Shown here in pieces: positions 2,772-7,239 of a stretch of DNA of 9,866 nucleotides. The DNA lies in NCBI GenBank assembly GCA_913773715.1, contig CAJYHD010000418.1, positions 1-9,866 of the forward strand. Direction: 5' to 3'. The notes under the pieces were generated by a model. It ran no database searches. It was not told where the DNA came from and saw only the letters and a list, made by a program, of their open reading frames with translations. The translations under genes were made by a program, and so were the position numbers. Position 1 is the stretch's first letter. Each line of letters opens with the position of its first letter. This DNA is from an uncultured Sphingobium sp. (lineage in GTDB: Bacteria > Pseudomonadota > Alphaproteobacteria > Sphingomonadales > Sphingomonadaceae).

Positions 2772-3245
2772 ATGACCACCCTCTCCCGCGAAGACCGCGA
2801 AACCCTCCAAGCGGCCCAGCGCATCAAGCGCTCTATCGCCCGCGACCGTAAGCGCGACGTCACCGCCACCCGCGCCCAAGCCGGCAAGGCCTCTCGGGGC
2901 CGGATCATCGATCGCGCTCACCTCGCATGGGTCCGGCGCCTGCCGTGCGTCGCCACCTACGTCGAAACCGGACGCCTGGACTACGGCTGCCAGGCCGCGC
3001 ACCTGCGCCTGTCCTCGGCCGCCCACGGCAAGGCCCACCCAGGCGGACAGCGCAAGCCCGATGACAGGTGGGTCACGCCCCTGTCTGCCGAACAGCACCG
3101 CATCCAGGGTGAGGTAAAGGGCGAGCCTCGCTTTTGGTCCGATCTGAGTATCGACCCCTTCGACCTTTGCCAGCGCCTCTATGCCATCAGCGGCGACGAT
3201 GAGGCCGGTCTTCAAGTGATCACCAGCCTGCGAGGCGGCCGATGA
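2772..3245 (+). CDS. HNH/Ref-type (DUF968-like) putative nuclease (157 aa)
   Basis: The ATG at 2772 has GGAG seven bases upstream; the TTG at 2766 is less likely. After a basic N-terminal helix (residues 1-45), the protein shows a layout typical of small phage HNH-fold nucleases related to P1 Ref. It has LPC at 58-60, a second Cys at 73, AAHLR at 75-79, KPDDRWVTPL at 95-104, a late His at 109 in EQHRIQ, and a C-terminal FWSDLSIDP (121-129). In the family the Cys and His residues bind a structural zinc and the His/Asp residues the catalytic metal. The usual CxxC is relaxed here, since the residue three after C59 is Thr62 and the next Cys is at 73. Such proteins act in phage recombination or DNA processing. 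It is coupled to the methyltransferase by an ATGA overlap. Family assignment is by recalled motif layout. Confidence 0.65.
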   Translation: MTTLSREDRETLQAAQRIKRSIARDRKRDVTATRAQAGKASRGRIIDRAHLAWVRRLPCVATYVETGRLDYGCQAAHLRLSSAAHGKAHPGGQRKPDDRWVTPLSAEQHRIQGEVKGEPRFWSDLSIDPFDLCQRLYAISGDDEAGLQVITSLRGGR

Positions 3246-4684
3246 TCTACGGATCCGTCTGCAGCGGCATCGAAGCCGCCTCCGTCGCCTGGCATTCGCT
3301 CGGCTGGCGCGCATCCTTCCTGTCCGAGATCGAAGCGTTTCCGCGCGCGGTCCTGGCTCACCACTATCTGGACACCCCTCTCCATGGCGACTTCACGACG
3401 ATCGCAGCAGGACAATACGACCCTATCGATCTTCTCGTTGGTGGAACCCCCTGCCAGTCCTTCAGCATCGCCGGGCTACGAGGCGGACTGGACGACGACC
3501 GTGGCAACCTGGCCCTCGAATATCTTAGGCTTGCTGACCGACTCCGGCCCCGATGGCTGGTTTGGGAGAACGTCCCCGGCGTCCTGTCGTCGAACGGCGG
3601 ACGGGACTTTGGAGCCATTCTCGGGGGCATGGTCGAACTCGGGTATGGGTTCGCCTACCGAGTGCTTGACGCTCAGTTCTTCGGAGTGGCCCAGCGACGC
3701 CGTCGTGTGTTCGTTGTCGGATACCTTGGAGACTGGCGACGTGCCGCAGCGGTTCTATTTGAGCGTCACAGCCTGTCGGGGCATCCTGCGCCGCGCCGAG
3801 AAAAGGGGCCGAGCGTTGCCGCCCTCACTGCTAACGGCGTTGGAACATGTGGCGCTGACGACAACCAAGGACAAGCCGGACACCTGATCCCCGACTGGCC
3901 TGCGCAAGTTTCCCCGACCCTCAACGCAGCCTTCGGGTCGAAACTCGGGCTGGACAACCAGCACATCGACAGCGGCGCGGGAATGTTCGTCGCCCATACC
4001 CTCAAGGGAGAGGGTTTCGACGCCAGCGAAGACGGCACGGGACGCGGGACGCCAATCGTGCCGGTCGCCTACCGCACCACGGGCAATGACGGCGCCTATG
4101 AGACTGGCGAACAGATTGGCGCCCTGACGACCTCAACCGATCCGAACGCCCAGATCATCGCCTTCAGCTCCAAGGACCACGGCGCAGACGCCATGTCGGA
4201 CCTGTCGCCAACCCTGCGCGCCGGCGGACACAGCAAGAGCCACGCGAACGCGGGCGTGATGCCGGCCGTGTCGATGCCGCTGCGATCCAACTACCGGAAC
4301 AACAGCAATCCCGCGACCGAGGCGGCGATGCACATTCACCAAGGATCCGCCGTCCGCCGCCTGACGCCCCGCGAGTGCGAGCGGCTTCAGGGCTTCCCCG
4401 ACGACTACACACTCATCCCTTACGGAAAGCGGATCAGCGATGATGAGAAGGCTGAGCTGGCGGCGTTCTTCGAGCGCACCGGCCAATACATAAAGGACGT
4501 CGATGGGGCGCTAGTGTTCGACCGCGAAGCCTTCGAAACCGCCTGGCCCCGCATCGCCGCTGACGGCCCTCGATACAAGGCGCTTGGGAACTCAATGGCC
4601 GTGCCTGTCATGGCCTGGATCGGCCGGCGCATCGCCGCCGTCGATGCCCTGCAAACGCTCATCCACCATCGCGAGGCTGCATAG
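3242..4684 (+). CDS. DNA (cytosine-5-)-methyltransferase, orphan phage type (480 aa)
   Basis: The protein transfers methyl groups from S-adenosylmethionine to C5 of cytosine in a specific DNA sequence. The family motifs appear in order: I SVCSGIEAASVAW (5-17, AdoMet binding), IV GGTPCQSFS (67-75, catalytic Cys71), VI ENVPG (109-113), VIII QRRRRVFVVG (151-160), IX LTPRECERLQGFPDDY (374-389) and X ALGNSMAVPV (447-456). Residues ~190-370 form the target-recognition region, with degenerate repeats of a xTLxA...PxV module. No restriction endonuclease is adjacent, so this is an orphan enzyme. In phages such enzymes usually protect DNA from host restriction. It is coupled to the upstream nuclease by ATGA and lies 2 bases before the next gene. 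Codons over 3384-3887 are unusually poor in third-position G/C, consistent with an overlapping gene there. Confidence 0.95.
   Translation: MIYGSVCSGIEAASVAWHSLGWRASFLSEIEAFPRAVLAHHYLDTPLHGDFTTIAAGQYDPIDLLVGGTPCQSFSIAGLRGGLDDDRGNLALEYLRLADRLRPRWLVWENVPGVLSSNGGRDFGAILGGMVELGYGFAYRVLDAQFFGVAQRRRRVFVVGYLGDWRRAAAVLFERHSLSGHPAPRREKGPSVAALTANGVGTCGADDNQGQAGHLIPDWPAQVSPTLNAAFGSKLGLDNQHIDSGAGMFVAHTLKGEGFDASEDGTGRGTPIVPVAYRTTGNDGAYETGEQIGALTTSTDPNAQIIAFSSKDHGADAMSDLSPTLRAGGHSKSHANAGVMPAVSMPLRSNYRNNSNPATEAAMHIHQGSAVRRLTPRECERLQGFPDDYTLIPYGKRISDDEKAELAAFFERTGQYIKDVDGALVFDREAFETAWPRIAADGPRYKALGNSMAVPVMAWIGRRIAAVDALQTLIHHREAA
3384..3887 (+). CDS. overprinted ORF inside the methyltransferase gene, +1 frame (167 aa)
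   Basis: This is an open frame from ATG 3384 to TGA 3885-3887, wholly inside the methyltransferase gene and shifted +1. Unlike ordinary shadows, its product resembles a recurrent phage hypothetical family. It has a Ser/Pro-rich N-terminus (SPSASPGYEADW), then TSPASCRRTADGTLEPFSG, WSNSGMGSPTECLTL, CSLSDTLETGDVPQRFYLS and ACRGILRRAEKRGRALPPSL. I recall the last three motifs from annotated stand-alone proteins near phage C5 methyltransferases but cannot search for them here. By hand count, third-position G/C in the methyltransferase frame is about 63% across this stretch and about 84% in the ~150 codons after it. CGA arginine codons are frequent only in the overlap. The start has no strong ribosome-binding site. 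Function is unknown. Confidence 0.55.
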   Translation: MATSRRSQQDNTTLSIFSLVEPPASPSASPGYEADWTTTVATWPSNILGLLTDSGPDGWFGRTSPASCRRTADGTLEPFSGAWSNSGMGSPTECLTLSSSEWPSDAVVCSLSDTLETGDVPQRFYLSVTACRGILRRAEKRGRALPPSLLTALEHVALTTTKDKPDT

Positions 4685-4686
4685 CC

Positions 4687-5001
4687 ATGACCACCGCCCT
4701 CGGCCCCGCCACAGAGCGCCGCCTCATGGAAGCTTTCGCTGATACCTGCGTCCTCACCTGCGGCGCCGCGGCCCGCCTGATCGGAGTGGACGAAAAGAGC
4801 CTGCGAGCCCTGACCGACGATGGCGTGATCCGCGCGGTGCGCCGTGGCGGCGGCCGTTGGCGCGCCTATACCGAGGGTGACATCCGGGATTACCTGACGC
4901 AGGGTGCTGCGCCGGCTCGGGAGTCGAAGCCCCGCGCCACAGGGAACAGCCAGCTGAAGGTGGTGCCGTTCACCCAGCGCAAGGTCACGGCGCGGCGCTA
5001 G
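4687..5001 (+). CDS. small winged-HTH DNA-binding protein, candidate excisionase (104 aa)
   Basis: Residues ~23-72 fit a MerR/excisionase-type helix-turn-helix: LTCGAAARLIGVDEKSLRAL is the first HTH and VIRAVRRGGGRWRAYTEGDI the wing and following strand. The C-terminus (~75-104) is basic and probably disordered. Proteins of this kind directly upstream of phage integrases often act as recombination directionality factors (Xis) that bend the attachment site during excision. That role is inferred from fold and position: it starts 2 bases after the methyltransferase stop and ends 12 bases before the integrase start. An alternative is a transcriptional regulator of the integrase operon. No separate promoter is evident. 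Confidence 0.75.
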   Translation: MTTALGPATERRLMEAFADTCVLTCGAAARLIGVDEKSLRALTDDGVIRAVRRGGGRWRAYTEGDIRDYLTQGAAPARESKPRATGNSQLKVVPFTQRKVTARR

Positions 5002-5013
5002 GGATCGAGGCAC

Positions 5014-6174
5014 ATGACCGTCTATCTCCCCAAGACCAGCCGTTTCTGGGCTTACGATTTCCAATACAAGGGCCGCCGCTTCCACGGCTCAACGGGCGTC
5101 GAGGGCAAGCGCGCGGCCGAAGCCGTCGAGCGGCGGATCCGTCTTCAAGCCGCGACCGGCGCCTTGGACGACGGCGCCGACATGACGCTGGACCAGGCGG
5201 CTGGCCGATGGTGGACCGAGGTCGGTCAACACCGAGCTAGCGCCTATCAGCTGGAGCACCGCCTCGCGATCGCTGTGCGGCTGGTCGGCCCGAACACGCC
5301 CATCCGCGAGATCACCACCAAGGTCATCGCGCGCGCTATCGAGCGCCGCCGCGGCGAGACCACCGTCCGCAGGAAGGACAAGCCCGGCAGCCCAGCCAAG
5401 CGCTGGCCGCTATCGAACGCGACCGTGAACGCGGACGTCATGCGCCCCCTGCGGCGGGTGCTGAACCGCGCCCGCGAGGTGTGGGAGGTCCAAGGCCTGC
5501 CGGTCATCGACTACAAAGCTCTGGTGCTGAAGGAGAAGGAGACCGAGATTCGGCTCTACAGCGCCGAGCAGCAGAAGGCTTGGTCGGATCAGTGCGACCC
5601 GACGGCGCGCTTCGTCCTGCGTCTGCTGCTGACCTACGGCCTGCGCTACAGCGAGACCTTCCTCCCGCCTGAGGCCTTCATCCCCGACGCCCCGGGCGGC
5701 CCGGTGCTGGCTATCAACAAGCGCAAGCGCGGCGCGCTTTACCTCCCCCTTCGGGCCGACGACGCGCGGGAAATTGCGGCGCGCGCCGGGCGGGCGAAGG
5801 CAGCCGGCCTCGCATCCATTCTGTTCGAGACAGCAGGCCGCGACGACGACGGCAGCGATCGGCTCGTCGAAGTCTCGCGGACCGGCCTGGCCGTACGCCT
5901 CCGCTCAGCGGCCAAAAGGGCAGGCCTCACGCACACCCGCATCATCCACGGCACGCGTCACCATGTGGGCACCACCACCTTGGCCGAGACCGGCGACCTG
6001 CGCCTGACGCAGAAGCTGCTGGGGCACGCCGACATCAAGTCGACACTGGTTTATTCGCATGCCTTGGACAGCGGCCTACGGGCGCAACTGGAGTCTCGGA
6101 ACAGTCCCGGAGCACCAGACCCCGCGGCCACCTTCGCGCCGGCAAAACAGAGACGCTCGCGCAGCCGCAAATAA
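5014..6174 (+). CDS. tyrosine-type site-specific integrase (386 aa)
   Basis: The protein catalyses integration and excision of the element by strand exchange at att sites. The N-terminus (1-50) looks like an arm-binding domain (FWAYDFQYKGRRFHGSTG), followed by a SAM-like core-binding region (~55-165). The catalytic domain (~180-355) shows Arg211 in LTYGLRYSE, a basic beta-turn INKRKRG with a likely catalytic Lys at 236-238, His312 and Arg315 in HGTRHHVGT, His338 in LLGHAD and nucleophile Tyr347 in TLVYSH. The usual HxLR motif is HGTR here. Length is normal and the residue set complete, so it is probably active. GAGG precedes the ATG at 5014. Codons 361-367 (SRNSPGA) are encoded by a sequence repeated twice downstream around the tRNA scar. 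The partner att core is probably 7350-7395, about 1.2 kb away. Confidence 0.95.
   Translation: MTVYLPKTSRFWAYDFQYKGRRFHGSTGVEGKRAAEAVERRIRLQAATGALDDGADMTLDQAAGRWWTEVGQHRASAYQLEHRLAIAVRLVGPNTPIREITTKVIARAIERRRGETTVRRKDKPGSPAKRWPLSNATVNADVMRPLRRVLNRAREVWEVQGLPVIDYKALVLKEKETEIRLYSAEQQKAWSDQCDPTARFVLRLLLTYGLRYSETFLPPEAFIPDAPGGPVLAINKRKRGALYLPLRADDAREIAARAGRAKAAGLASILFETAGRDDDGSDRLVEVSRTGLAVRLRSAAKRAGLTHTRIIHGTRHHVGTTTLAETGDLRLTQKLLGHADIKSTLVYSHALDSGLRAQLESRNSPGAPDPAATFAPAKQRRSRSRK
6094..6113 (+). repeat. SRNSPG repeat, copy 1 (inside integrase 3' end)
   Basis: TCTCGGAACAGTCCCGGAGC matches the two downstream copies (7269-7288 and 7498-7517) at 18 of 20 positions. Both differences (TCT/TCC and AAC/AAT) are synonymous in the integrase frame, where the sequence encodes Ser-Arg-Asn-Ser-Pro-Gly. 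It may be an integrase arm-binding site within the gene, or the source of which the other two are relics. Confidence 0.6.
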
Positions 6175-6439: not shown

Positions 6440-6751
6440 ATGCCGCAACCGGAGTGGGACGCGTTGGCGAATTCATTCGCCTCGATTGGCAACGCCTTCG
6501 CTATGGGGTCGTTGCTTATCGGTGTCGTAACTCTTCTAGCCGGCATCGGCTGGGGTTTGTGGGTGAAGAAGTGGGCTGAGGACGCTGCGAAGGATGAGGC
6601 AAGAACGCATGCGAAAGCCTTGGTCGCAGAATGGTGCCGGACAGAAGCCCCGCAGATAGCTCGGCGCCACGTAGATTTTTTGATGAATACGTCGCTCGGA
6701 AACACCGACGATGTGGAAGCCGCTGACGAGATCGGAGAGGAGGCAGGATGA
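6440..6751 (+). CDS. small single-pass membrane protein paired with an ImmA/IrrE peptidase (103 aa)
   Basis: From ATG 6440 the protein begins MPQPEWDALANSFASIGNAF. It has one strongly hydrophobic span at residues ~22-41 (GSLLIGVVTLLAGIGWGLWV), then a charged helical cytoplasmic segment (KKWAEDAAKDEARTHAK) and an acidic tail. No domain is recognised. The frame stays open back to a GTG at 6338, which has GGAGG four bases upstream and lies about 35 bases from the candidate promoter. Those extra codons have only about 44% third-position G/C against roughly 68% in the first ~40 codons after 6440, so I prefer 6440, though it lacks a clear ribosome-binding site. The stop overlaps the next start (ATGA), so the protein is co-translated with the peptidase and may be its partner or substrate. 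Confidence 0.65.
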   Translation: MPQPEWDALANSFASIGNAFAMGSLLIGVVTLLAGIGWGLWVKKWAEDAAKDEARTHAKALVAEWCRTEAPQIARRHVDFLMNTSLGNTDDVEAADEIGEEAG

Positions 6752-7239
6752 CAATGACTATCGACCCCCTGGCGCTCACCGCGAAGTATTGGGGCGACAT
6801 CCCCGTTCCCGTGTTCGATATCTTGGGCGAACTCGGGCTTGGGCCCGACCGTCCCCTTATGGATGATAACGTGTCCGGCTGGATCGAACGTCGGCCTGAC
6901 GGTTCATATCGGGTTGCGGTGAATCCCATGCACGCCCTCGTTCGGCAGCGTTTCACCGCTGCGCACGAGTTGGGTCACTATATCTATCATCGTGAGCTTC
7001 TGGGAGCCGGTGTGGGGGACACACGTGCCTATAGACAAGACGGAACCCCGATTGCACCCAACGCAGCCGTTAGGACGATGCACGAGAGGCAGGCCAACAG
7101 CTTTGCCGCCAACTTGCTGATGCCGCATCATTCAATCACCGCTCTGCAAAACCAAGGCATCAACACCGTCCCTGGATTGGCCGAGCGGCTGCAAGTTTCA
7201 CAAGAAGCCATGCGCATTCGTCTAGGGTTACCTCGCTAG
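6748..7239 (+). CDS. ImmA/IrrE family zinc metallopeptidase (163 aa)
   Basis: Zincin motif HELGH at 73-77 in RFTAAHELGHYIYH supplies two zinc ligands and the catalytic Glu74. Glu113 in MHERQANSFAANLLMP is the expected third ligand in the downstream helix. This arrangement defines the ImmA/IrrE (DUF955) family, whose best-known member cleaves the ImmR repressor of ICEBs1; IrrE of Deinococcus cleaves DdrO. These peptidases usually lie beside an XRE-type repressor or carry one. Here no HTH gene is adjacent and the partner is the membrane protein ending at 6751. GAGGAGG precedes ATG 6748, with a second ATG at 6754 also possible. Its place between integrase and att fits an accessory induction, toxin-antitoxin or immunity cassette (inference). 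Confidence 0.9.
   Translation: MTMTIDPLALTAKYWGDIPVPVFDILGELGLGPDRPLMDDNVSGWIERRPDGSYRVAVNPMHALVRQRFTAAHELGHYIYHRELLGAGVGDTRAYRQDGTPIAPNAAVRTMHERQANSFAANLLMPHHSITALQNQGINTVPGLAERLQVSQEAMRIRLGLPR

Follow-up and report, generated by a model that had tools for sequence, protein, structure and literature searches.

Methyltransferase gene and nested reading frame

The DNA analysed here, called the window throughout, is a stretch of 9,866 nt from an uncultured Sphingobium sp. (contig CAJYHD010000418.1). It carries a gene for a C5-cytosine DNA methyltransferase (MTase) and, inside this gene and offset by one base, a second open reading frame (ORF). The features discussed below are as follows:

3242..4684, + strand: C5-cytosine DNA methyltransferase, the large or "alpha" frame, 480 aa (PF00145, 3.4e-49; TIGR00675, 4e-51; phrog_116, 7.4e-87)
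3384-3887, + strand: nested ORF for a putative second protein, starting with ATG, 167 aa, offset +1 with respect to the MTase frame
3384..3386, + strand: candidate nested start ATG of the window, with only GGA upstream as a poor Shine-Dalgarno sequence
3417..3419, + strand: nested ATG column common in relatives (86 of 103 eligible, 40.4 expected); the window has ACG
3537..3680, + strand: middle segment of the nested product, under weaker constraint, similar to phrog_16143 and, to a lesser degree, to the N-terminal half of phrog_1008
3705..3854, + strand: conserved C-terminal domain of the nested product, predicted to be helical by AlphaFold2, with invariant or nearly invariant columns (124.5 bits)

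The large frame exceeds the cut-offs of both enzyme profiles, PF00145 (168.5 bits, cut-off 22) and TIGR00675 (174.6 bits, cut-off 100.65), and carries the motifs of C5-cytosine MTases: IV (PCQ), VI (ENV) and VIII (QRRRR) are seen in the sequence within the overlap, and IX (RRLTPRECERLQGF, at 4355) and X (at 4586) were located by pattern beyond it. The motif IX pattern is absent from the window's nested frame. The MTase is also matched at 8.3e-67 by phrog_864, whose label "DNA primase" may reflect a fused or misnamed member. Downstream of the MTase, at 4687-6174 and 6748-7239, an HTH/MerR-like protein, a phage integrase and an IrrE-type (Peptidase_M78) protein are encoded. These genes suggest the end of a prophage, and a search of the window for tRNA genes found none.

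An earlier note on this DNA, made from the sequence alone, had described a 167-codon frame nested in the MTase gene, and the coordinates and the +1 offset listed above confirm this arrangement. It had also reported that the G+C content at third codon positions (GC3) of the MTase frame drops from about 84% after the overlap to about 63% within it. The inner value stands, but the flank has 81%; the complete profile is 81% before the overlap, 63% within, 57% in 3681-3830 and 81% after. The clusters of rare codons it pointed to were recovered as well, with CGA, GGA, CTT and GTT accounting for 7, 11, 5 and 6 of the 167 codons in the overlap versus 2, 6, 2 and 1 of the 264 codons after it. The +1 frame of the window is free of stops from 3246 on. 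Judged from the window sequence by itself, this openness is unremarkable and not significant: 496 of 5000 synonymous shuffles (10%) keep 3384-3884 open and 399 of 5000 yield an open +1 stretch of at least 213 codons. The significance of the +1 frame therefore comes from its relatives and not from the window sequence by itself.

Occurrence of the nested domain in phages, bacteria and plasmids

At E<=1e-3, 1444 database proteins match the nested product, and when 50,697 phage records were searched in translation, 151 of them gave a hit. Ten of these with annotation were inspected; in all ten the match falls within an annotated MTase or large CDS, in its +1 frame, the nested ORF is unannotated, and the large CDS is sometimes called hypothetical. 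At least 318 loci came from IMG/VR contigs, which were scanned with the nested product and, in separate scans, with the MTase; each pattern scan gave at most 80 loci, often out of a longer list of candidates. For the C-terminal domain (consensus YFLSxKACxGILRRAxKRGKxLPxxLxxAL), a profile was built from ten sequences and applied to 329 sources, namely the window, the ten phages and 318 loci. The domain was detected in 328 of the 329 sources, and all 329 matches overlap an MTase in its +1 frame. Among the loci fetched by the MTase alone, 157 of 158 have it. The earlier note had matched motifs of the nested product to hypothetical phage proteins annotated separately near C5-methyltransferases; the link to MTases is borne out, while the position is corrected, as the domain lies inside the MTase gene (328 of 329 sources) and not merely near it.

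The same nested arrangement occurs in at least 80 loci from bacterial genomes, whose titles name Proteobacteria, Acidobacteria, Planctomycetes, Verrucomicrobia and Actinobacteria. Of 72,556 plasmid records, 529 match, 448 of them from Escherichia, and 18 of 30 among the matches listed stand under "Dam family" methyltransferase annotations, like the P1-type dmt. One plasmid locus with the nested domain (H81, CP009882.1 of Pantoea sp. PSNIH1) bears the annotation "multidrug DMT transporter permease", apparently because the gene name dmt was misread.

No gene for a stand-alone domain away from an MTase gene was found in the 329 sources, in loci L329-L409 or in 65 further loci; L329-L409 gave 81 matches at offset +1 and one minus-strand match that is +1 by the same arithmetic. 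One candidate for a stand-alone gene, gp104 of mycobacteriophage Thibault, was rejected, as it sits in an MTase region split by an HNH endonuclease gene. In this type of Omega-like mycobacteriophages (Thibault and Schatzie; L410-L414, e.g. L410:1371-3172 and L411:1375-2898), the HNH endonuclease gene interrupts the MTase and the nested domain, annotated in Thibault as gp104, comes after it. The Schatzie record carries the remark "unable to determine intron boundaries". The interruption is probably the insertion described for ShiLan in PMC11855218. In another locus (L535:3704-3866), the nested domain lies about 700 bases past the end of the MTase profile match within a frame of 1102 codons, as if the enzyme had received a large insertion ahead of the overlap.

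Protein-level selection on the +1 frame

Conservation in a frame that overlies an enzyme gene may be a mere shadow of the enzyme. Synonymous codons were therefore permuted within each MTase gene, a procedure that keeps the enzyme and its codon usage and destroys the +1 domain. With 20 shuffles for each of the 255 non-redundant loci among the 328, the domain scored above all shuffles in 255 of 255 loci, with a median of 104.6 bits versus 9.1 bits after shuffling; the highest shuffle reached 49.5 bits and the lowest observed score was 27.9. For the window, 124.5 bits compare with 1.4-22.1 in its 20 shuffles. Together with in-frame homologues outside any overlap, described below, this establishes homologues beyond shadows, an outcome that the earlier note had set as a test of its claim.

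The second line of evidence is the rate of synonymous differences in the MTase frame, which was determined from 106 independent pairs with an expectation taken from outside the overlap. The ratio of observed to expected differences is 0.96 in 3242-3383, falls through 0.81, 0.63 (3483-3581), 0.49 (3582-3680) and 0.35 to 0.29 across 3384-3830, and returns over 0.77 (3831-3884) to 1.05 and 1.00. The constraint thus starts approximately at the start of the nested ORF and stops with its end, and 60 pairs fetched only by the MTase give a nearly identical profile. The proposal that the synonymous sites are constrained by a second protein family is supported by this decrease from 0.81 to 0.29 against 0.96-1.05 outside, and the predicted reduction is bounded by the ORF.

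The third line comes from the entropy of codon positions. In 3762-3827, nested positions 1, 2 and 3 show values of 0.80, 0.86 and 1.44, so that the most variable position is the third base of the nested frame (1.44) versus 0.86 for the third base of the MTase. In two control regions the third base of the MTase is the most variable one (1.68 each; nested positions 1, 2 and 3 in the control 3243-3380: 0.82, 1.68 and 0.94), and it remains so in the overlap outside 3762-3827. This switch indicates that selection in 3762-3827 acts mainly on the nested protein rather than on the enzyme. In addition, the +1 frame is open in most relatives, with stops in 14 of 90 loci versus 90 of 90 for the +2 frame, and it is open for at least 60 codons ahead of the domain in 249 of 255 loci. 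Comparative sequence analysis thus shows that selection acts on the protein encoded by the +1 frame in phages and prophages whose hosts differ greatly, and on this evidence we regard the nested product as a real protein.

Start codon of the nested frame

The ATG at 3384 is not enriched, being present in 67 of 127 eligible relatives with 62.1 expected, and in 36 of 60 (30.4 expected) where the 3417 column is not ATG. In 42 of 255 loci the top candidate is the 3417 ATG, preceded by a Shine-Dalgarno match of at least 4 bases. Such matches precede 42% of nested-frame ATGs versus 26% of control codons.

Predicted fold and family relations

The AlphaFold2 model of the full-length nested product has a mean pLDDT of 66 and only its C-terminus is confident, with block means of 91-98 for residues 121-160; the C-terminal part modelled alone reached 74. 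The product is thus predicted to consist of a weakly structured N-terminal part and a confidently modelled helical C-terminal domain, which by sequence is small and rich in Lys and Arg. Structure searches of the PDB gave no significant match, a result that does not show a new fold, and sequence searches of the PDB gave none either. In a viral structure library, searched with the full-length model only, the best match (E 0.039, probability 1.00) was a Thibault protein of 81 aa, which, judged by its equal length, is probably the family member gp104.

The nested product has no family in Pfam or NCBIfam and two relatives in PHROG, both labelled "DNA methyltransferase". The window product matches the profile of phrog_16143 at 9e-7 over residues 54-129, and 58 of the 92 members aligned likewise match it at E<=1e-3. 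For phrog_1008, the window product reaches 0.037, and 9 of the 92 relatives match at E<=1e-3. Similarity of the N-terminal half to the small protein of the EcoHK31I type extends only partly beyond shadow: 51 of 255 loci score above all shuffles, and 64 of 255 exceed 10 bits versus 5.7% of the shuffles.

Comparison with known two-part methyltransferases

Nested partners of C5-MTases are as a kind already known, from M.EcoHK31I and from an annotation in Streptococcus phage MM1 1998. The small polypeptide of M.EcoHK31I is reportedly itself nested in the large gene, and M.EaeI is a further enzyme of this type. Like the window, loci of the M.EcoHK31I type, here represented by phrog_1008, have a small +1-frame protein overlapping the catalytic motifs of a C5-MTase: among 62 loci with both matches, the register is +1 in 59, of which 54 overlap. 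In 43 such loci, motif IX was found in none of the large frames and motif X in 34, while the small protein shows LMGF.W in 22. This layout fits that of M.EcoHK31I, in which, according to PMC3404938, motif IX is the only motif carried by the small polypeptide and is missing from the large one. A set of other phage C5-MTases (L415, L416, L418, L419 and L421-L480) has a +1 partner different from that of the window, often with a motif-IX-like LMGFPxGW, and a large frame without motif IX; this partner was phrog_1008 in all three cases tested. Among these phages, gp57 of DevRi is annotated "Not called by any program".

The family of the window differs in that its large subunit keeps both motifs (of 238 large frames, 207 have IX and 216 have X; IX pattern in 0 of 252 nested frames) and its small protein has a different C-terminal domain. 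The window thus shares the small +1 polypeptide with the M.EcoHK31I type; as motif IX is present in its large frame and absent from the nested one, its nested product is beta-like in place and register and is not a member of this type.

A further comparison is with two streptococcal phages, MM1 1998, whose nested ORF is annotated "C5 methyltransferase beta subunit", and P0095 (gp51). Their nested +1 ORFs, of 141 and 139 aa, occupy the position seen in the window, contain an SLSDILE..YFLS segment and match phrog_16143 end to end (273 and 288 bits). They differ from the window in that they end without the KACxGILRRAxKRGK helix. The split C5-MTase M.AquI likewise consists of two polypeptides, as is proposed for the pair in the window, but according to PMC3404938 it is one enzyme cut in the variable region, with motifs IX-X in the small part. 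For the nested domain, its motif-IX-free type, its reach to P1 and many phyla, and its fused descendants, no prior report was found among the listed titles and abstracts of open-licence papers.

The dmt gene of coliphages P1 and P7

The dmt genes of P1 and P7 have, like the window, the nested domain in the +1 frame, unannotated in either record; they differ from the window in additionally coding for an adenine-methyltransferase part. In the P1 record the nested frame comprises 162 codons at 66713-67198, open from its first ATG, and the domain scores 113.0 bits versus a shuffle maximum of 41.8 (492 of 500 shuffles obtained a score). PMC12707154 calls dmt essential in hosts that lack Dam, and a CRISPRi screen in PMC10695390 lists both of its halves as non-essential, which together make P1 a convenient test bed.

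The domain fused in frame to the enzyme

The sole locus without the nested domain among the 158 fetched by the MTase, L236, shows numerous stops in its +1 frame and carries DIYISPVGCYGIVRRKQERNLKINPRLEEVL in frame after motif X. A protein search with its C-terminal region found 511 proteins; among the 120 matches listed, PF00145 and the nested-domain profile in frame were both present in 120 of 120. Five of these 120 have a later GN[SGA] match past the start of the domain, so that the position "after motif X" is valid by pattern for 115. One fused enzyme, P0190, is assigned by its source to Phascolarctobacterium faecium. A profile-profile comparison (hhalign) of the fused with the nested family gave 95.7% probability and E 9.7e-9 over 70 collinear columns, and no match of the nested N-terminal half to the fused family.

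A set of 65 loci (at least 62 from a further scan, L236 and two other loci) contained 47 with the domain nested in +1, 14 with the domain fused in frame, none with both and four with neither. The profile used here contained fused sequences, and the fused calls therefore rest on the 120 of 120 in-frame matches and on hhalign. The 14 fused loci represent 8 distinct sequences over the overlap region, and these have 4-11 stops in the +1 frame there. Of 20 nested loci checked, 19 are without a +1 stop, including four with 39-40% G+C, and L495 has 2 stops. The four loci with neither form by profile (L492, L540, L543 and L544) would be useful for tracing where the overlap arose or vanished.

In a tree of 46 rows (21 nested), obtained after strong thinning with EcoHK31I-like enzymes as the root, the fused clade has a support of 100/100 and lies within the nested type, beside P7 dmt, and the branches behind it have supports of 97/96, 95/91, 95/90 and 100/98. 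It thus seems that the overlap came first and the fusion later, in a tree whose columns include the overlap. The sequences show that in one MTase clade the same domain stands outside any overlap, at the C-terminus of the enzyme, with the overlapped copy gone.

Interpretation

We consider it likely that 3384-3887 encodes two proteins, the MTase and a small partner with a start of its own that binds and assists the enzyme. Frame 0 would provide the catalytic half of a phage C5-cytosine MTase, and the +1 frame a small protein translated from an internal start (near 3384-3417) on the same mRNA. This protein would bind the MTase made from that mRNA and could assist it in stability, in DNA or target binding, or in control, as the beta polypeptide of M.EcoHK31I does; the nesting would keep the partners co-inherited and co-expressed. 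The earlier note had taken the product to be unrelated to the MTase. It is probably a partner instead, as the domain is fused to the enzyme in one clade; since none of the 65 loci has both arrangements, the nested product most likely acts with the MTase. As the large subunit has motif IX, the MTase may not need this partner for catalysis. Other observations that weigh against the partner reading are the poorly preceded and unenriched ATG at 3384, the confinement of the codon-position switch to 3762-3827, the weak N-terminal similarity to the EcoHK31I-type small protein and the listing of both P1 dmt halves as non-essential.

The strongest competitor, an unlikely one in our judgement, is a real and conserved +1 product that is independent of the MTase, e.g. 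a regulator or a counter-defence protein, the overlap merely saving space or sharing a transcript. It would agree with a large subunit that has the motifs to work alone (IX and X, in the proportions given above) and with a small, helical, Lys/Arg-rich domain, but the sources examined never show this domain away from an MTase gene, and one clade has fused it to the enzyme. A +1 ribosomal frameshift out of the MTase frame, leading to a short fusion of MTase and domain and no free small protein, is very improbable. That fusion is tolerated in one clade speaks for it, as does a 214-aa database protein (P0064) with PF00145 and nested sequence, which may equally be a sequencing error; on the other side, the constraint begins near 3384-3417, where the nested ATGs sit, the 3417 column is enriched for ATG, and this ATG is the best-placed candidate with a Shine-Dalgarno match in the 42 loci mentioned above. 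A mere shadow, with the MTase as the only product and the +1 similarity due to conserved motifs and base composition, is refuted on present evidence: the first half does overlie highly conserved motifs and a tenth of the window's shuffles stay open, but the shuffle test, the synonymous constraint, the switch of the free position in 3762-3827 and the homologous domain outside any overlap rule it out.

Returning to the preferred reading of an enzyme and its assisting partner, we favour, with somewhat less assurance, the wider view that the nested domain may represent an unrecognised and very widespread class of C5-MTase partner subunits, lying wholly in the +1 frame of the catalytic domain, in phages and prophages of many bacterial phyla and including P1, and that one clade left the overlap behind when the domain was relocated to the C-terminus of the enzyme. 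We judge that among double-stranded DNA phages there are few long nested gene pairs as strongly evidenced, here by synonymous constraint, a stretch with the codon periodicity of the nested frame and a homologue outside the overlap, and the presence of the pair in a model phage (P1 dmt) makes it immediately testable. If the reading is true, many phage C5-MTases now regarded as single polypeptides possess another subunit, which would be lost unnoticed whenever such a gene is recoded for expression. The fused clade gives a direction, from overlap to fusion, for how an overprinted gene can be freed, and would be an example from nature of two overlapping genes that have resolved into a fusion.
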